NCBI RefSeq assembly: GCF_902726545.1
Contig: NZ_CACVAD010000032.1
Span: 1 to 56,113, forward strand
Direction: 5' to 3'
Source: Yersinia artesiana
GTDB taxonomy: Bacteria; Pseudomonadota; Gammaproteobacteria; Enterobacterales; Enterobacteriaceae
DNA: 56,113 bases
Numbering within the stretch: position 1 is the stretch's first letter; each line of letters begins with the position of its first letter. The notes below the pieces were generated by a model. It was not told where the DNA came from and ran no database searches. It was given only the letters and a program-made list of their open reading frames with translations. A program made the position numbers and the translations under genes. This document shows positions 1-6,973 of the stretch, in pieces.

Positions 1-1
1 T

Positions 2-220
2 TATAGGGATTGGTATGATATAAAAGATGCAGTCAGATATATCTCTAGTCTAGTCAGAAATATTGAAAAATATCTTTATCGGCTAATTGCTATATGTATT
101 GTGACTTGGGTTTGTGTGTTTTTCATATCCAACTTTGGTTGGCATGAGTCCGAAAAATATTTCCATACAGAAATTGATTATAATTTTGTCAATACAACCA
201 AAGTTAATTTTAGTAGTTAG
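2..220 (+). CDS. C-terminal end of an unknown membrane protein (partial)
   Basis: An open frame enters from the left edge and stops at TAG (218-220), leaving 72 residues. The visible part has a charged stretch (about residues 1-28), one hydrophobic segment (about 29-45, with LIAICIVTWVCVFFI) and a polar tail ending in NFSS. It lies 28 bases before the repeat-protein gene on the same strand, so the two could be co-transcribed. The family cannot be recognised from the tail. It might be a transporter or membrane component of the putative RiPP cluster, but that is only inference from position. Confidence 0.6.
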   Translation, partial: YRDWYDIKDAVRYISSLVRNIEKYLYRLIAICIVTWVCVFFISNFGWHESEKYFHTEIDYNFVNTTKVNFSS

Positions 221-248
221 CATGACAACATAACAGGGGTTAGATAAG

Positions 249-671
249 ATGAAGCCATACATTATGAATTATAGTGAAACGATCACTATGAAACAGTCTG
301 TTGCGATCCAAAATACAAATATTTTAGATGTTACCACAAGGACATTCACTATTGAGACTGATGATCACGATGAAATTTTAGGGCTTGCAACAATAATTAC
401 TGAGCGGATTGAAAACTCAGATAGTGACGAAATCAGTGCATATTCTACTTTTCAAACACATACAGTTGAAAATAGTGATAGAGATGAGATTTCCTGTGCT
501 GGCACGATGGTCACTGCGGTCATTGAGAATTCTGATACTGATGAGTGTTTGTTATTTTCAACAATGGAAACGAGAGTGTTAGAAGCGGCTGATTCGGACG
601 AGATTTCTTATTTGATGGCTGATTCAACTATCATGACTAAGGTATTTGAAGCTACGGATAATGATGAATAA
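249..671 (+). CDS. Acidic repeat peptide, candidate multi-core graspetide (omega-ester RiPP) precursor
   Basis: This 140-residue protein has a 28-residue leader-like N-terminus followed by six repeats of T-x-x-T-x-x-x-E-x-x-D-x-D-E. The first Thr of each falls at residues 29, 48, 67, 86, 105 and 127, an exact 19-residue period for the first five. The last repeat ends at the stop codon. Repeated Thr donors followed by Asp/Glu acceptors are the hallmark of graspetide precursors; as I recall it, the thuringinin group motif TxTxxxExxDxD is close. In that family an ATP-grasp ligase forms Thr-to-Asp/Glu ester links. No ATP-grasp gene is in this window; it would have to lie upstream. Start: AGGGG at 235-239 is well spaced before ATG 249. 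A non-RiPP acidic repeat protein is the alternative. Confidence 0.7.
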   Translation: MKPYIMNYSETITMKQSVAIQNTNILDVTTRTFTIETDDHDEILGLATIITERIENSDSDEISAYSTFQTHTVENSDRDEISCAGTMVTAVIENSDTDECLLFSTMETRVLEAADSDEISYLMADSTIMTKVFEATDNDE

Positions 672-835
672 TTCTGTTGTTATTCATTAGTGTATAGGCC
701 CTTCCTAAGATAATTGTGGTCGGGCTAAATTGACTCCCCCTATATCCTCACTCCCCCACCCCCACACTATTCACCCCATTCACCAACCTACAAGATCACC
801 CCCATAACCCGCACCCACTCTGGCTTCGGCCCCTC

Positions 836-1011
836 TGAACACTTTCCCTCAGACTCTTCAGCAACTGTTCAGGTGTTCAGTTTTTAATAGCTGCCATCCA
901 TGAACTAATGAACACATCTGAATACTGACTGAACAGTTATTAGTAAACTATTCAGCCGGTTTTTATCTTTGTATTTCAATTAATTAAATCTATTCCTGAA
1001 CACGCTGAACA
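836..1011. repeat. TGAACA iteron cluster downstream of alpha, candidate crr/ori-type region
   Basis: In the gap between the repeat-peptide gene and the alpha stop codon, the hexamer TGAACA or its complement occurs at 836, 866, 874, 909, 930, 997 and 1006: seven copies in 176 bases on both strands, plus near matches such as TGAACT at 901. Phage P4 alpha protein binds decameric type I iterons containing GTGAACAG in its origin and cis-replication region, so this position and motif fit a replication control site. The surrounding 672-830 stretch is C-rich and holds no gene that I can see. No binding evidence exists here. Confidence 0.5.
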
Positions 1012-1030: not shown

Positions 1031-3325
1031 TTAGTGGGGTGGCTCTTCCGGTTGCGGATGGTGGGGCAGTGCCAGGGCGGGGAGCCAGTCATTGGCGGTA
1101 TCGGATAAATCCATGTTGTAGCGGAACCCTTTGTCAGTTCTGGCTTTTTTGTATTCTGCGCCGAACTCTTTCATTACTTTGGGAAAGTCTTTGCCAAATT
1201 TGGTCAATGATAATGAACGCTGATGGCCGTAAGCCTCCATATAAGCCAGATAAGCGTGATACAGATAAATGCGTGGGGCGCGAGGGGAAATTGCCAGCGT
1301 TCCCATATACATACCGACCGCCTCGCCCAGCTCGACAATGTGCGCACAGAAGCCATAAAGCGGATCGGCATCCCGCTTAACCCCCATCGCCTCCCGTGAA
1401 TCTCGCTGCTCAAGTAGCAACTTTCGCGCCTTGTCCTGATCGGCAAATTCAGCCAGCAGGCAGCGGATCACCACCGGCAGCTCGGCCGCGATTTTCTCGC
1501 CGATTCGCGGATCTTTATCCGCCTCTTTCACTGGATGGTTGAACGCGAAAATCACCCGCCGTCGGGCAATACCGCCTTGTCGCTCAGTGAAACTCATCGG
1601 CTCGTTATTGGTCGCCAGCACCACGGCGGTTATCAAAGTGCTGAATTGTTTCTCATATTTGCCGTCGATTTCCACTAAATCCCCGCCGGTGATGGCTTTG
1701 ATGCCCGCCCCCTCGCCGACATATTTCACCTGATCGGGCAGCGTAATCAGGCTTTTGCCGACAAACTGCGCGCGCCCTCTGGCCTGATCAAGCGCCGCCA
1801 TATTGCCGGAGGCGGTGTTCTGGCGGCCCGCCAGCAAAGTGGCGATGTGGGTAAATACCGATTTCCCGCTGCCGCCCTCGCCAGTGACCTCGAGGAACAA
1901 TTGCCAGTCGAAGCGGTTAGACAGGATGGTAAACAGCGCAGCTCTGATACGGGCCATTTTGGGCCATTCGTCATTGGCCGCATGGGCCAGCCACTTGGTG
2001 AAATGCGGGGCGTGGTGTGCCAGATTTTCGTCTGGCTGCGGTTCGGTGAATATGATGTCGTTATGATGCTGCAACCAATCATTGGCGCGATGCGGCCGGA
2101 ACTGTCTGGCTTTCAGGTCATAAACCCCATTCTGAAAGCCGATCAAGTGGCGCGGCGGCTCGGCCATGATCGGGATTTGCAGCTTCATCGCTTCAATGGC
2201 ATTGCGGATACCGGCCGGTGAATACGGCGTGTCGTTGGCGTTGAAAATCATCACCAGCTCGCGCCGCAACACACCATCGGGCAGCTTGCCCCAGCGCTCG
2301 CCATCATAGTGATACACCGTTTCACTCTCAGCATGTACCGCAATCTGACCATAATGTTCGGCCAATAACTGCCCGCGCTGGCTGGCGGCCATTTGCGATA
2401 AAGCCGGATGTAACCCTTTGTTTTCAGCCACCTGGCTCACCGGCGGCGGCTGATACAAACCATGATAAAAGCTGTTACGCGCCTGCCCGGTACCGGCTTG
2501 CTGGCGGTAATCATCCCAATCGGCTTTATACGGAGTCGGCGGCAGTGTCACCCAACCATCGACCACGCTGGCCACTTTTTCTGCGGCCAATTGGCCGGTA
2601 TTGGCAGCACCTTGCGGGTTAACATCATTATCAGCGGCAATGATGATTTTCGCGGCAGGCCAACGGGTACGACATGCCTGCGCCACCGACAGCAGATTAC
2701 CGGCATCGATGGTAGCGATAATCACGGCGGCCGGTAGCAACAACCCCAGACTTTGCGCCGTGGCGTAACCCTCGGCCAGCACCACGGTTTCAGCCTGTTC
2801 CGGCAGCGGTTTGAGTGGGATAAACGCGCCTTTTTTGCGGCTACCGGCGATCAGTTTTTTCGTGCCGTCGGGCCGGATAATCTGTGCGCCGGTGCTGTCA
2901 CCCGCCATATTCTGCAATATCAGCAATAACGAACCATCCGGCAGAATAGGTAATTTATGGCCGCTCAGACCTTTATTAATTAAATAGCGAGATTCTCCTG
3001 GCGTGGTTTTCGCCATGAGAGAGGCCAGATCCGGCGCTTTAGGTTTGGGCAAGATACCGAGAATATCGGCCACCAGCTGCGCGGCTTCTGTCAGCGAACA
3101 TTGCCGGACATTTTTCACCAGATCCAAACCGTCGCCGGATCGGGGTTCGCACTGATTACAAAACCACGTTCCCGCGCCCTGACGGTCATCAAAACGAAAG
3201 CGGTCTTTGCCGCCACAGGCCGGACAGGGGGAGTGCTGTTTGCTGTGACAGATCGCCAGCGCATCCAGAATACAGTCCCATTTTCCGCGCGCCTGAGTCG
3301 CGACCCCAGCAATAAATTGATTCAT
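1031..3325 (-). CDS. P4 alpha-like primase/helicase
   Basis: At 764 residues this is close to the P4 alpha protein, a primase, helicase and origin-binding protein. An N-terminal zinc motif (C34, C37, C56, C59; CPACGG and CNQC) is followed by a Toprim domain with the catalytic Glu in VLAEGYATA (182-190) and AADND (230-234). A helicase core carries Walker A GEGGSGKS (482-489). The C-terminal part would bind iterons. In the satellite family it starts DNA replication of the element without host primase. It is the last gene of the leftward module. All major motifs are intact, so it is likely functional even though no integrase is visible. Confidence 0.95.
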   Translation of the reverse strand: MNQFIAGVATQARGKWDCILDALAICHSKQHSPCPACGGKDRFRFDDRQGAGTWFCNQCEPRSGDGLDLVKNVRQCSLTEAAQLVADILGILPKPKAPDLASLMAKTTPGESRYLINKGLSGHKLPILPDGSLLLILQNMAGDSTGAQIIRPDGTKKLIAGSRKKGAFIPLKPLPEQAETVVLAEGYATAQSLGLLLPAAVIIATIDAGNLLSVAQACRTRWPAAKIIIAADNDVNPQGAANTGQLAAEKVASVVDGWVTLPPTPYKADWDDYRQQAGTGQARNSFYHGLYQPPPVSQVAENKGLHPALSQMAASQRGQLLAEHYGQIAVHAESETVYHYDGERWGKLPDGVLRRELVMIFNANDTPYSPAGIRNAIEAMKLQIPIMAEPPRHLIGFQNGVYDLKARQFRPHRANDWLQHHNDIIFTEPQPDENLAHHAPHFTKWLAHAANDEWPKMARIRAALFTILSNRFDWQLFLEVTGEGGSGKSVFTHIATLLAGRQNTASGNMAALDQARGRAQFVGKSLITLPDQVKYVGEGAGIKAITGGDLVEIDGKYEKQFSTLITAVVLATNNEPMSFTERQGGIARRRVIFAFNHPVKEADKDPRIGEKIAAELPVVIRCLLAEFADQDKARKLLLEQRDSREAMGVKRDADPLYGFCAHIVELGEAVGMYMGTLAISPRAPRIYLYHAYLAYMEAYGHQRSLSLTKFGKDFPKVMKEFGAEYKKARTDKGFRYNMDLSDTANDWLPALALPHHPQPEEPPH

Positions 3326-3500
3326 GACTCTTCCTTTTTACGCCCGGTTTCCGGCGGATAAAATCCATTTTCGGGCCATTTTTAACACCCATGGAAATGT
3401 TTTAAATTTTATAAATACAATTTATATATCAATTAGATGCAGATAATCTGATTCTGCTGTCCAGTAGTTGAACCCGGCAGAAATATTCGTAGACTCGCTG

Positions 3501-3569
3501 TATCCACCACGCCAACCTTGCTCCGTGGTGGATAAACGCCCCGATGGCATTGAGGCTTGTCGGGGCGTT
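3501..3569. ncRNA. Two adjacent perfect hairpins in the alpha leader (structured RNA candidate)
   Basis: Stem 1 pairs TATCCACCACG (3501-3511) with CGTGGTGGATA (3524-3534), 11 of 11 pairs. Stem 2 follows with no gap and pairs AACGCCCCGA (3535-3544) with TCGGGGCGTT (3560-3569), 10 of 10. No U-run follows on either strand, so these are not ordinary terminators. They lie about 180 bases upstream of the alpha start. In P4 the alpha operon leader encodes the CI immunity RNA and its pairing partners. A comparable regulatory RNA is one possibility; a bidirectional barrier or protein site is another. Confidence 0.45.
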
Positions 3570-3624
3570 CCTTTCGATATATCCGCAGCCGGAGGAAAAT
3601 AACGTTTCTGTTATTTTTTAGCCT

Positions 3625-3948
3625 ATGAACTACACCATTGAATATTACGATGACGACGTCATCACCCAGCTTCTTGCCCAACCCATCAGCTTGCAGGCCA
3701 ATTTTATTAGCCTGGCTCAGCGCATGAAGCGCTACGGCGTTAGGATGGTTGATGCCACCCCGAAGCATTACGAAGAGGTGTTTGAGCTGTGTTTTTTTGA
3801 GCCAAAAGGCTGGAATCGCGTCATTTTTATGGCGCAAATAGACTGGCAGATTGTTATTTTGCATATTGTGGTGCAAAAAACGGCTTATATGCCGTGGAGA
3901 GAAAAGGGCAAAGCCGCCAAACGAATGAAGGAGTTGCGATTTGGATAA
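3625..3948 (+). CDS. RelE/HigB-like (Gp49 family) toxin
   Basis: A 107-residue protein opposite to the surrounding satellite genes. The layout matches phage-derived HigB/Gp49 toxins, ribosome-dependent mRNA interferases. These have an N-terminal Tyr/Asp-rich strand, a central region ending LCFFEPKGWNRVIF, then a strand pair VILHIVVQKTAYMPWREKGKA that recalls the family pattern of a hydrophobic strand followed by KKTxKTP and a basic helix. The usual KLRG segment before LFELR has drifted, which lowers confidence in activity. It overlaps the start of a short downstream frame, as toxin-first modules often do. An AT-rich hairpin (3596-3619) precedes it. Confidence 0.7.
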   Translation: MNYTIEYYDDDVITQLLAQPISLQANFISLAQRMKRYGVRMVDATPKHYEEVFELCFFEPKGWNRVIFMAQIDWQIVILHIVVQKTAYMPWREKGKAAKRMKELRFG

Positions 3949-4093
3949 TAAACGCCAACCACCCAGCCTGTCCCATGAACAAGTGGTCGCCCTAATGCTA
4001 AAGAAACCGGCGGTGAGGGCAGAATACGAACGGCTGGAGCGCCAGGATTTCGCCATCATTGATGAGACGCTTAAGGAAATACATTCCGAATAA
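3941..4093 (+). CDS. Very short putative antitoxin partner (TTG start)
   Basis: The frame begins at TTG 3941, eight bases inside the end of the toxin frame, with AAGGAG about seven bases upstream, a strong ribosome binding site. It encodes 50 residues. The segment LMLKKPAVRAEYERLERQD resembles the N-terminal helix of HigA-type antitoxins (xPxVRAEYExL). The expected helix-turn-helix domain is absent because a stop follows at 4091. It is therefore either a minimal antitoxin that keeps only the toxin-binding helix or a truncated one. It was identified by hand from the sequence. Confidence 0.6.
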   Translation: MDNKRQPPSLSHEQVVALMLKKPAVRAEYERLERQDFAIIDETLKEIHSE

Positions 4094-4106
4094 TGTTTAG
4101 GCGCAT

Positions 4107-4307
4107 TCATTGTTTATTTTCCCGTGAATGTGCAATTTGCTGTTCAATCCAGTCATTCACCTCACTTTCAACAAAAGCGATGGCCCGCCCGCCTATTTTT
4201 ATCGGTGGTGGGAAGCGCTTTTGTTTTAAGAGTTTATAAACCCAAGGCCGGCTAAAACCGGTACGTTTTAATACTTCTGGCAATCGGATTAATGATGAAT
4301 AGGTCAT
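4107..4307 (-). CDS. AlpA-family DNA-binding regulator
   Basis: This 66-residue protein has the AlpA/excisionase-type winged helix-turn-helix: LIRLPEVLKRTGFSRPWVYKLL, then the basic KRFPPPIKIGGRAIAF wing, then a short helix EVNDWIEQQI. In P4-like islands AlpA proteins activate or regulate integrase and element gene expression. Here it heads the alpha side of the satellite, separated from alpha by the oppositely oriented toxin module. The start codon ATG 4307 is preceded by GGAG in the leader. Length and motif are typical. Confidence 0.9.
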   Translation of the reverse strand: MTYSSLIRLPEVLKRTGFSRPWVYKLLKQKRFPPPIKIGGRAIAFVESEVNDWIEQQIAHSRENKQ

Positions 4308-4488
4308 TCCATGACTCCTGTTATCTCTCGGTGGCTACTGAATTAATTGAAACAAAATCAGGCCGTAATAGGGGGAAGTGGCAAATAAATAAAAGGAACC
4401 TTTATTCCGGTTGTTTTAGGTCAATCCGTAACGCGAATATGTTAGTTGGAAACCCATAGCGGCGAGTTGGAAATAAACTTCCACTCGT

Positions 4489-4803
4489 CTAAGGATTATC
4501 GGCCTCGGGCAGAGAAACGAGCAGCGCCTCGCTGATCAAGTTGCTCATTTGCTTTTCGGTCACCATTTCTCCGCTGAAACCCGCGTTGAGCATGGCCTGA
4601 GTCGCCACACGGGCAATGGCAGTTTTATTCATTTTGACGCCGCGCCGGCACTGCGGGTTGTTCCTGGCTAACGCGATTGCCATACCGGCAATAAACGCCA
4701 GCGCGGTTTCTTTACCGGCAAAACCACCCCAGTTCTCTTCCGCTTGCCGCTGCTCCGGCACCCGTACAGCGCCCGGCGGCAGCGGCCAGTGAAAGCCATT
4801 CAC
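4489..4803 (-). CDS. Small satellite/phage-type protein of unknown function
   Basis: A 104-residue frame with a GTG start at 4803, just after the stop of the upstream gene. It begins with a Pro-rich stretch (HWPLPPGAVRVP) and has a helical middle with ALAFIAGMAIALARNNPQ. Proteins of this general look sit between alpA and other small genes in P4-like islands of enterobacteria; I do not know their function. It is part of the leftward gene run and is GC-richer than the next gene upstream. No catalytic motif is visible. Confidence 0.6.
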   Translation of the reverse strand: MNGFHWPLPPGAVRVPEQRQAEENWGGFAGKETALAFIAGMAIALARNNPQCRRGVKMNKTAIARVATQAMLNAGFSGEMVTEKQMSNLISEALLVSLPEADNP

Positions 4804-4809
4804 CTTAAG

Positions 4810-5169
4810 CTAGCTCTCTACTTCTGCTTTTAATAAATAACCGTCATAGCGAATATCTTTATTAGCATTGGTATAACTAATATCCCGACAACTTAATAGG
4901 TTGCAATCCACTGCATCCCATAATGATTTCTCATAATTAATTATTACAATTCCTATATCATCAGTTTGAATAGAATAAGGTATCACCCCGACAATTAATG
5001 CCGCAGTTTCTTTTATTGTGATATTAATTCTGGATAGAAATGGCGTTAGCCATCCTGGCAATTTATCTTTAAGAATGTTTTGATATTCTTCGTCACTGTC
5101 ACGCAGGTTAATCTGCAAAAGCTGTTCTATTTCAGTGCGGTTAAATCCGATGTAATCATAACAATTCAT
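4810..5169 (-). CDS. Small AT-rich hypothetical protein in satellite
   Basis: A 119-residue protein starting MNCYDYIGF, followed by acidic helical segments and a hydrophobic middle (AALIVGVIPYSI). It is clearly more AT-rich than its neighbours on both sides, which suggests a separately acquired gene inside the satellite. It sits 12 bases downstream of the 5182-5547 gene and just before the GTG start of the 4489-4803 gene, consistent with one leftward transcript. No family is recognised; anti-phage or immunity roles are common for such slots but unsupported here. Confidence 0.6.
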   Translation of the reverse strand: MNCYDYIGFNRTEIEQLLQINLRDSDEEYQNILKDKLPGWLTPFLSRINITIKETAALIVGVIPYSIQTDDIGIVIINYEKSLWDAVDCNLLSCRDISYTNANKDIRYDGYLLKAEVES

Positions 5170-5181
5170 GCTGTTAATACC

Positions 5182-5547
5182 TTAGAAGGGAAGTTCGTGA
5201 TCATCCTCCTCATCGGGTCGGTGATTAAATTCGCTAGGTTTATAACTTTCAGGTATCCATCCATCACAAGGCGCTCCATCCATTTTAGGGTTGGCCATCG
5301 CTGCCGAGAGCAGATCAAAATAGCAAAATTGGGGGTCATCAAAGCTGGGGGAGCGGATAATACCGAGCGCGTCCTGAATCAGTAACGGCGGTGAAACTGG
5401 CCGGGCATCCGTCAATTCTATCAGCAGCCAGTTGGCTATCTGTGCCTGACTCATTGCGGGGTGGAGACGCGAAATTCGCTGAATCAACTCCCTGATACTG
5501 ATAAATTCCTGCTGCTTTGCCTTGAGCTTTTCCGCTGGGTTTATCAT
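5182..5547 (-). CDS. Small satellite-encoded hypothetical protein
   Basis: A 121-residue protein with a basic N-terminal helix (EKLKAKQQEF), then SIRELIQRISRLHP and QIANWLLIEL, and a strongly acidic C-terminus (DEEDDHELPF). The middle shows an arrangement typical of small phage proteins that build on a DNA-binding-like helical core, but no named domain is certain. It leads the run of three small leftward genes. The ATG at 5547 is preceded by GGAGTAAT. Function unknown. Confidence 0.65.
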   Translation of the reverse strand: MINPAEKLKAKQQEFISIRELIQRISRLHPAMSQAQIANWLLIELTDARPVSPPLLIQDALGIIRSPSFDDPQFCYFDLLSAAMANPKMDGAPCDGWIPESYKPSEFNHRPDEEDDHELPF

Positions 5548-5729
5548 GAGATTACTCCTGTTATCTCTGGTTGGCCCTGCTTTGAATGATACCGAACATA
5601 ATGGTTCAAAGTGAAAGTAGTAGGGGGATGGTGCTGATTTAGGATGTGAATTGGGATTTATAGGGTTAACAAAAATCTATACCCAGAGTTTTTATCAAGC
5701 AATAATAAACGAGCATTTGAGTAATAGAA

Positions 5730-5755
5730 ACGCCCGAGTTAGCGTAATCAGGCGT
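5730..5755 (-). terminator. Putative terminator for the 5771-6741 gene pair
   Basis: Read on the minus strand, ACGCCTGA pairs with TCGGGCGT across a ten-base loop (seven Watson-Crick pairs plus one G-U). It is followed by TTTCTATT. It lies just after the stop codon of the 5771-6418 gene, separating that pair from the small satellite genes downstream. Confidence 0.6.
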
Positions 5756-5770
5756 ATTAAATCGGGGGAT

Positions 5771-6418
5771 TTAGATAATAGATTTGGTTGCGGCCAAAAC
5801 GTGATTATTGTGATTACGCCATGATGGTGTAAAGCCCAATGTCTCCAGATTGCTCAGTTCGACATTATCTGGGTTTCCCCAAATAGTATCAGCAATTTCC
5901 AGCAAAGATTTTCTATCACCCTGAAAACTGATCCTTTCGCCGTGCTCGTTAATTTTATAATCCAATGTATGACCATCCACATTTAGAATGGTTAACTGGA
6001 TGCTGTCATCTTTAGACAGACCAAACAGCCAAAGCACCATCCCGCCCTCAGTCTGATAAGTATCACTTATTACAGCACCGTAATGGTCAATAATGGCTTT
6101 ATAGGTGGCAGTAGACACGCCCCCACCTTGATATTCTTGTGAGACATAAGCTGATTCAACTTGGGGTAAACGTTGGCCTAAATCCACTGGTGGGGTGAGG
6201 TCGAAAGTCAAAACATAGCTTGCTATATGCTCACCTGAAAGTATCTCTTTGATATGAAGATGGGCCATATTACTCCCATCATCTTCAAGTAATGCTTGAA
6301 AGAGGTCACCATTCGGGGTTTTAAATTCAGGGAGCCATAAAAAATGGCCGGGAGCTAAATCATTAACTTCCGGCCATTTTAATATTTTATCGTGTTCAGC
6401 AATTAAATTGGGTGACAT
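5771..6418 (-). CDS. Unknown protein with GNAT-like motif, second gene of a pair
   Basis: A 215-residue soluble protein. The segment ESAYVSQEYQGGGVSTATYK (about residues 88-107) resembles the acetyl-CoA binding motif A of GNAT acetyltransferases (V-x-x-x-x-Q/R-G-x-G-x-G/A), followed by AIIDHYG. The N- and C-terminal parts are not recognised, and the rest of a GNAT fold is not obvious, so acetyltransferase activity is only a suggestion. It overlaps the preceding gene by 16 bases, a tight two-gene operon ending at its own terminator. It could be satellite cargo such as a toxin, effector or anti-phage pair. Confidence 0.65.
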   Translation of the reverse strand: MSPNLIAEHDKILKWPEVNDLAPGHFLWLPEFKTPNGDLFQALLEDDGSNMAHLHIKEILSGEHIASYVLTFDLTPPVDLGQRLPQVESAYVSQEYQGGGVSTATYKAIIDHYGAVISDTYQTEGGMVLWLFGLSKDDSIQLTILNVDGHTLDYKINEHGERISFQGDRKSLLEIADTIWGNPDNVELSNLETLGFTPSWRNHNNHVLAATKSII

Positions 6419-6741
6419 GCAGATAGAGTCCCTTTCTTACTGAAGAACAAATCAACCGCTTTTTGTGAGAAATCGATAGAGGTATCCTGCAAATCATTCC
6501 AGAAAAAAGCTTGGTTAACTGGACGAGACTTACCGTTTTTCTCAATAACGATTTCAGATACTGGGCGTATTTGTTCATAGGCAGCGGCTTTTTCCCAGCC
6601 GGTACGAACGACCATCAATAGGGGACGTTCTTTACGATTCTTCATGCTTCTCACTTCAAAGCCACCCAAAACACCAGGTACGGTAAAACACCCAATACGC
6701 TCGGTTCTGTTAGCAATAGTATGTGGCGAATGTGTGATCAT
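6403..6741 (-). CDS. Unknown protein, first gene of the cargo pair
   Basis: A 112-residue protein when started at ATG 6741 (MITHSPHTIANRTERIG), which follows GGGG at a suitable distance. A longer frame begins with TTG at 6789 but has a weak leader. The sequence has a basic stretch (MKNRKERPLLMVVRTGW) and mixed alpha/beta character, with no recognised domain. Its end overlaps the start of the 215-residue partner. The tight overlap suggests the two products act together. Function is unknown. Confidence 0.6.
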   Translation of the reverse strand: MITHSPHTIANRTERIGCFTVPGVLGGFEVRSMKNRKERPLLMVVRTGWEKAAAYEQIRPVSEIVIEKNGKSRPVNQAFFWNDLQDTSIDFSQKAVDLFFSKKGTLSACHPI

Positions 6742-6973
6742 ATTCAGGCCCCAAACAGTGAGAATTAAGTGGTTATAGTTTAAGCGCAAAGAGGCCTGAC
6801 GTCCACCAGCTTCTACTGATATCTCATGGTGTCAGCACGTTATCTACCTTTGATTCATGGGTAAAATAGTTGTCTGGAAATGATGATTTTGATGGTTGAG
6901 TACATGATAAGAATGGCCGGATGTTCCCGTGATTTGCATGTTTCTTTAGCTGCGCTGAGAGACACAAAATAAT

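Follow-up and report, generated by a model that had tools for sequence, protein, structure and literature searches.

A probable multi-core graspetide precursor of Yersinia artesiana and its three-gene operon on mobile elements

The window, by which we mean the whole stretch of 56,113 nucleotides of Yersinia artesiana DNA that was analysed, is the entire contig C32 of its genome, and its left edge is therefore an assembly end that falls inside a gene. This truncated gene, an open-ended reading frame on the forward strand (2..220), encodes in bases 2-217 the last 72 residues of a predicted membrane protein, with one hydrophobic stretch in the hydropathy profile and 89% identity to the C-terminus of the corresponding protein in the same-genus genome G023. 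It is followed by the gene under study (249..671, forward strand), which runs from ATG to TAA and encodes 140 amino acids without any match in Pfam or NCBIfam. The motif TxxTxxxExxDxDE begins at residues 29, 48, 67, 86, 105 and 127 of the translation, giving matches to six core repeats on the forward strand at 333..374, 390..431, 447..488, 504..545, 561..602 and 627..668. An earlier reading of the sequence alone (the sequence-only reading) had described five repeats with an exact 19-residue period and a sixth ending at the stop codon, and recomputation returned the same arrangement, with spacings of 19, 19, 19, 19 and 22 residues and the sixth copy closing on the last residue. All six copies carry Thr at +0 and +3, Glu at +7 and +13, and Asp at +10 and +12. 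When the precursor was shuffled after residue 20, six TxxTxxxExxD copies were found in 0/2,000 shuffles, the maximum being two. Comparison with the 95% identical copy at locus L030 gave, for this one pair, dN 0.021 and dS 0.086, and none of the seven amino-acid differences falls at repeat offsets 0, 3, 7, 10, 12 or 13.

The gene and its motif were further followed through an alignment of 14 precursors, a set that omits L027 (the row of which looks the same as that of L033), the G023 copy cut by an insertion sequence, and L037 and L038. The alignment contains 23 invariant columns, all of them in the leader or at the T, T, E and D of the repeats; T, T, E and D at +0, +3, +7 and +10 are invariant in four repeats. 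In total, the 14 precursors hold 69 copies of TxxTxxxExxD, four to six apiece. D occupies +12 in 57/69 copies, an acidic residue is found at +11 or +12 in 66/69, and E at +13 in 23/69; as the copies were selected by the motif itself, only the free positions are informative in these counts from +11 to +13. On the basis of sequence, a pair of donors and a pair of acceptors in each repeat, TxxTxxxExxD, would fit best. The donors and acceptors proposed at the outset (Thr at +0 and +3, acids at +7, +10, +12 and +13) are all present in the six window copies, and T, T, E and D recur in the relatives. However, E at +13 is probably not an acceptor, because it is uncommon among the copies.

The N-terminal residues 1-28 (249..332, forward strand), including MKPYIMNYS, constitute the predicted leader, based on the alignment and on a published leader signature. 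Seven of its residues, M, K, P, Y, M, Y and S (MKPYxMxYS), are invariant in the 14 precursors. The signature Phhx(1,2)h is present in about half of graspetide precursors (PMC8939145); PYIMNY of the window leader fits it, as do 12/14 precursors under strict matching, the two outside the strict pattern being L035 and L036 (PYTMLY). Hence, the 28-residue leader that had been suggested from the sequence alone gains support from conserved residues that fit the signature, whereas its exact border with the core at residue 28 stays a prediction. A GG-type site is absent from the leader region of the window precursor. A leader followed by a core in which Ser/Thr/Lys donors stand ahead of Asp/Glu acceptors is a feature of graspetides, and the precursors here show it with Thr as the donor.

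The precursor is the third gene of an operon. In 13/13 other distinct precursor loci that were read, the gene order is ATP-grasp ligase, membrane partner, precursor, and at the junctions measured in nine operons the genes overlap by up to 11 bases or stand up to 24 bases apart. The three-gene operon contains no protease or transporter gene. The proposal of a graspetide had been staked on an ATP-grasp enzyme lying within 10 kb of the precursor in at least some carrier genome; the search found such a ligase two genes upstream of all 13 other precursors, which supports the graspetide reading. The window's own genome was searched with a ligase from a relative of the same genus, and the N-terminal part of the enzyme (residues 1-189) was located where contig C49 ends, with 98% identity to the relative's copy. 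By subtraction on the relative's gene order, about 956 bases separate the matched parts of C49 and C32, and the two contigs would be adjacent in the genome. Beyond the ligase fragment, C49 carries two small genes, a phage-type integrase and tRNA-Arg.

The four ligases tested (L005, L006, L008 and L011) match the NCBIfam model TIGR04187 with E 2e-47 to 3e-57, although their scores stay under the curated cut-off of that model, and two of the four reach the cut-off of Pfam PF21068. An ATP-grasp ligase of the MvdC/MvdD kind encoded together with the precursor is a feature of graspetides that these operons share. Compared with solved structures, a profile built from seven ligases matched CdnC (E 3.6e-40), the MdnB/C-type ATP-grasp ligases 5ig8 and 5ig9, AMdnB, an MvdD-like protein and 7drm (E 2.4e-10), which we take to be PsnB. 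The entry 5ig9 is named as MdnC in PMC7823629. DWR and ExN are invariant in the seven ligases and align with the same residues of four solved chains. DxR and ExN are conserved residues of graspetide synthetases with recognised roles. Searches of 394 genomes of the order and 398 of the phylum returned, at E 1e-40 or better, the window's own ligase, that of G047, or distant ligases (3e-41 to 2.5e-51). In G023 (L005 7441-8707) the precursor match stops after residue 39, where IS3-like open reading frames, recognised by eye, begin; the ligase and partner are still open despite the interrupted precursor.

Full-length partners comprise 280-356 residues with one to three hydrophobic stretches, some of them long enough for two helices, and the partners scanned gave no significant match in Pfam or NCBIfam. 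In an AlphaFold model of the partner (8-row alignment, pLDDT 78), three long helices accompany a strand domain at the N-terminus; structure comparison returned generic helical matches only, in the range that is common for helical bundles with this tool. A colicin V match of the partner fragment was weak (E 0.02) and was dismissed. Identity as a SLATT-type effector is not claimed, with no SLATT match in Pfam among six partners and three outgroup membrane proteins, nor is homology between the partner and these outgroup proteins (hhalign probability 2.3%, P 0.021; not significant). At L026 (10911-11731), as in L031, the partner is in two open reading frames; at L026 the ligase and precursor are open.

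The precursor was found in 3/99 genomes of relatives and in 2/394 genomes of the order, the own genome included in both counts, and among 369 genomes of the class in the own genome only. A scan of GTDB contigs gave 33 pattern matches, of which five were confirmed as loci (Marinomonas, Photobacterium, Aliivibrio, Pseudoalteromonas and one Colwellia metagenome-assembled genome), and IMG/VR yielded five ligase loci from 126 pattern matches and three precursor loci from six. Related operon DNA is present in 94/5,426 E. coli genomes, always on the chromosome: the L027 operon in three genomes (97.4 to 99.8%) and the L035 operon in 91 (99% or more). No DNA match to window positions 1-1000 was found in plasmids, nor any match to the window precursor in phages or to the Aliivibrio precursor in plasmids. 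The suggestion of a new subgroup in an enterobacterium consequently has to be widened, since the family also occurs in E. coli and marine gammaproteobacteria and is not restricted to one enterobacterium.

Next to the operon but outside it, the window carries a D5-type primase/helicase on the reverse strand (1031..3325; Pfam D5_N, Pox_D5 and Toprim_3; PHROG DNA primase), presumably of the type found in P4-like satellites. The region 1031-6789, with this primase beside the operon, contains the remains of a satellite-like element, and 4107-4307 is taken to encode a small AlpA-like regulator. The homology between the window and L030 stops about 170 bases past the precursor, where the window continues with the primase. 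Because C49 carries the integrase and tRNA-Arg and the window side the D5 primase, the window operon most likely lies within a satellite-like element at a tRNA gene. Two or three copies of a 0.66-kb segment, with 69-98% identity, surround the cargo in elements of this kind (L030 4009-4668, 9841-10501 and 14577-15213; L005 11543-12199 and 15592-16249; L039 1637-2299), and such repeats could allow cargo exchange by recombination.

For counting, the loci were grouped by us into 12 lineages: window/L005/L030; L026/L031; L027/L033/L034; L028; L029 (a 4-kb contig); L006; L035-L038; L008; L009; L010; L011; and L012. Integrase, phage or mobilisation genes adjoin the operon in 7/12 lineages, as judged by family search or annotation. 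At L028 (9998-12107) the operon sits in a prophage, on the opposite strand, between the endolysin gene and a Q-like antiterminator, a usual place for prophage cargo. At L012 it adjoins a phage replication gene A protein, at L009 a phage-type integrase, and at L026 it is near phage tail genes.

Defence or candidate-defence genes likewise adjoin the operon in 7/12 lineages, as determined by PADLOC on hand-picked neighbours. Three batches were submitted, in which 7 of 8, 10 of 10 and 8 of 10 proteins matched, the weak matches of L009 (second batch) and L026 (third batch) being left uncounted; the control, ten ordinary window proteins from 10.3 to 27 kb that do not represent mobile loci, gave one weak match. 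At L030, the intact sister of the window operon, AbiEii and AbiEi lie about 0.26 kb downstream. SIR2-HerA follows about 0.1 kb downstream at L027 and, by annotation, at L033 and L034, and L033 also carries ApeA. PtuA and PtuB (Septu) are found upstream at L036 with a retron-type reverse transcriptase downstream, and GajA and GajB (Gabija) upstream at L006 with a type II methylase and restriction enzyme on the other side. At L008 (Marinomonas pollencensis) a type IV restriction enzyme is located about 0.44 kb upstream, and at L011 a PDC-S59 ATPase, a candidate defence gene, ends 11 bases upstream. L010 (Aliivibrio) is flanked on both sides by BREX genes, with BrxL and PglZ on one side and on the other PglX and a protein that PADLOC names Orf5, HEC-06 and type IV, presumably GmrSD-like. 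No clear defence gene was seen in the stretches scanned at L009, L012, L026, L028 and L029, nor in the annotation of L035, L037 and L038, so that among L035-L038 only L036 has one. As for the operon itself, 0/10 of its proteins from L030, L033, L010 and L012 matched PADLOC-DB 2.0.0 at E 0.01, and the precursors of two relatives and of L030 had no PADLOC match.

For the possible exchange of cargo, islands of E. coli were compared. The TraD-relaxase region of L033 is found in 777/5,426 E. coli genomes, 124 of which hold 80% or more of the region, and from the 777 carriers four further islands, picked from 30 listed, were read. L053 corresponds to L033 in its ssrA site, relaxase (WP_021535604.1) and ApeA (WP_021535605.1); its slot between integrase and TraD holds a methyltransferase, an ATP-binding protein and a PD-T7-5-like protein in place of the graspetide operon and SIR2-HerA. 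The slot of L054 (tRNA-Phe) contains, by annotation, Kiwa genes and Dcm/Vsr, and that of L055 (tRNA-Phe) a methyltransferase with NsnA/NsnB-like proteins. At L056 type III restriction genes lie left of the pilus genes, with the integrase beyond the stretch read. Hence, 3/3 further islands with the slot read hold other defence or restriction genes there. Similarly, the defence cargo of E. coli islands described in PMC10121019 occupies tmRNA and tRNA sites on mobilisable elements; the tmRNA site is there reported to be a hotspot that mobilisable elements and satellites use, and the elements to have exchangeable defence cargo, and the term ATP-grasp does not occur in the main text of that paper. 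In combination, the named loci show that the operon is carried by mobile elements and occupies positions that defence genes also use. This neighbourhood is no proof of a defence role, because islands carry cargo of many kinds.

TxTxxxExxDxD is the core motif of thuringinin-type graspetides, and the repeat had initially been called near, but not identical, to it. The counts in the family bear this out: against the 69 TxxTxxxExxD copies stand 12 occurrences of TxTxxxExxDxD in ten precursors, one of them in repeat 1 of the window precursor, and the repeating unit is TxxTxxxExxD rather than the thuringinin-type core. The thuringinin-type peptides (cluster 13 of Makarova 2022; groups 3, 5 and 6 of Lee 2020 as cited there) likewise contain multiple core repeats in which Thr, Glu and Asp follow one another in this order. 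Moreover, PMC8939145 describes cluster 13 as multi-core and assigns to thuringinin loci a specific, uncharacterised membrane protein (cluster 18), so that a membrane protein is shared with the operon studied here. The microviridin and chryseoviridin synthetases (CdnC, AMdnB, 5ig8 and 5ig9) belong to the same ligase family (E 4e-40 to 8e-37) and share DWR and ExN; however, the leader here is not PFFARFL and the core is not the microviridin motif. Plesiocin, with the core TTxxxxEE, also has several repeats per precursor, bicyclic in that case, and PsnB is related (7drm, E 2e-10) but more distant from the present ligases than CdnC.

The mechanism that we propose builds on the operon as read, with ATP-grasp ligase, membrane partner and precursor in that order. 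The ligase would recognise the conserved leader MKPYxMxYS, activate E(+7) and D(+10) and link them as esters with the Thr residues at +0 and +3, two per repeat, and the window peptide would thereby lose up to 12 waters (216 Da). D(+12) may aid recognition, and E(+13) is probably spare. Because the operon lacks a protease or exporter gene and the window leader region a GG-type site, the peptide may remain with the cell, working with the membrane partner. Finally, satellite-like elements, prophages and mobilisable islands would carry the operon as exchangeable cargo, at sites that anti-phage genes occupy as well, and conflict with phages or other elements would be its most likely role. We hold this overall reading, a multi-core graspetide precursor encoded at 249..671 in a three-gene operon that serves as exchangeable mobile cargo with conflict as its most likely role, with high confidence. 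From sequence comparison, the identity of the window gene as a graspetide precursor is in itself very likely. An anti-phage or anti-element role taken by itself is a sizeable minority prospect, and anti-phage defence as such is put forward tentatively. A further version, which would be somewhat unlikely, is a graspetide-based immune module carried by mobile elements, in which the cross-linked peptide with its many repeats and the cognate membrane protein would work within the cell to counter phages or competing elements; the membrane protein could, for instance, be the effector and the peptide its regulator or target-binding part.

Conversely, the product might leave the cell as a protease inhibitor or inter-bacterial agent, comparable to plesiocin and the microviridins, with the partner as exporter and the mobility reflecting horizontal spread only, a possibility that we regard as rather doubtful. 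In its favour, all graspetides characterised by then were protease inhibitors, and the uncharacterised membrane proteins encoded at thuringinin loci were suggested to act in transport (both PMC8939145). However, the operon holds no protease or ABC-type gene, a loose GG-type pair is absent from residues 1-45 of 10/14 precursors, and one to three hydrophobic stretches in the partner would be few for a transporter. It is unlikely that the partner is instead a biosynthetic accessory for the activity or stability of the ligase, with no effector role: that its gene always accompanies the ligase gene and is translationally coupled to it would agree with this, and partner-dependent graspetide synthesis is known, e.g. 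from rosaritide synthetase and its partner protein, but the partners published in PMC13097080 are a predicted PPIase, 2OG oxygenase and beta-lactamase, whereas here a membrane protein is predicted. An addiction or immunity module, in which a harmful membrane partner would be restrained by the peptide or the reverse, is improbable; the three long helices of the partner model, the constant linkage and the mobility genes alongside in 7/12 lineages would suit it, and the split L026 partner beside an open ligase and precursor argues against it. An unmodified acidic repeat protein is highly improbable: repeats alone are common in many unmodified proteins, but the invariant Thr and acid positions and the graspetide-type ligase in the operon speak against it.

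In the literature, which was mostly open-access, no account of graspetides as defence cargo was found among the matches listed, the nearest published idea being RiPP families co-expressed with defence-related genes in ocean data (PMC11118758). What is newly described here is the setting, i.e. a graspetide operon beside defence genes on mobile elements. The MKPY-leader family itself may fall within a graspetide group published in PMC8939145 or PMC13097080; the latter counts 19 groups as new beside 24 earlier ones, and some groups have long precursors built of repeats and co-occurring proteins that lack models. An operon that occupies an island slot elsewhere filled by defence genes, with related DNA in 94/5,426 E. 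coli genomes, brings a biological role of graspetides within reach of ordinary phage assays in laboratory strains. Should the immune-module reading be true, the active component of such a defence system would be a ribosomal peptide cross-linked by an enzyme. The compact ligase and six-core precursor are in addition a resource for work on peptide cross-linking.

The motif is not private to the MKPY-leader family, because a distant operon in G1044 (L048/L051) has four TxxTxxxExxD copies behind another leader. This operon likewise contains a ligase and a membrane protein, with one long and a further hydrophobic stretch; it differs in its leader (QPFVLK) and in its order of precursor, ligase, membrane protein, and a profile comparison of the membrane proteins was not significant. 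The MKPY leader is absent from the three distant operons read (L046, L047 and L048). L046, L047, L048/L051 and L049 are distant graspetide-like operons, with leaders PFLAK and QPFVLK and also with a membrane protein, and at L049 an OLD-like ATPase/TOPRIM gene comes next after the operon. Related ATP-grasp proteins, at about 30% identity, are moreover encoded by Leptospira phage LE1 (KF114876.1, 59114-60061) and by a phage from human faeces (MT835913.1, 8836-9765).
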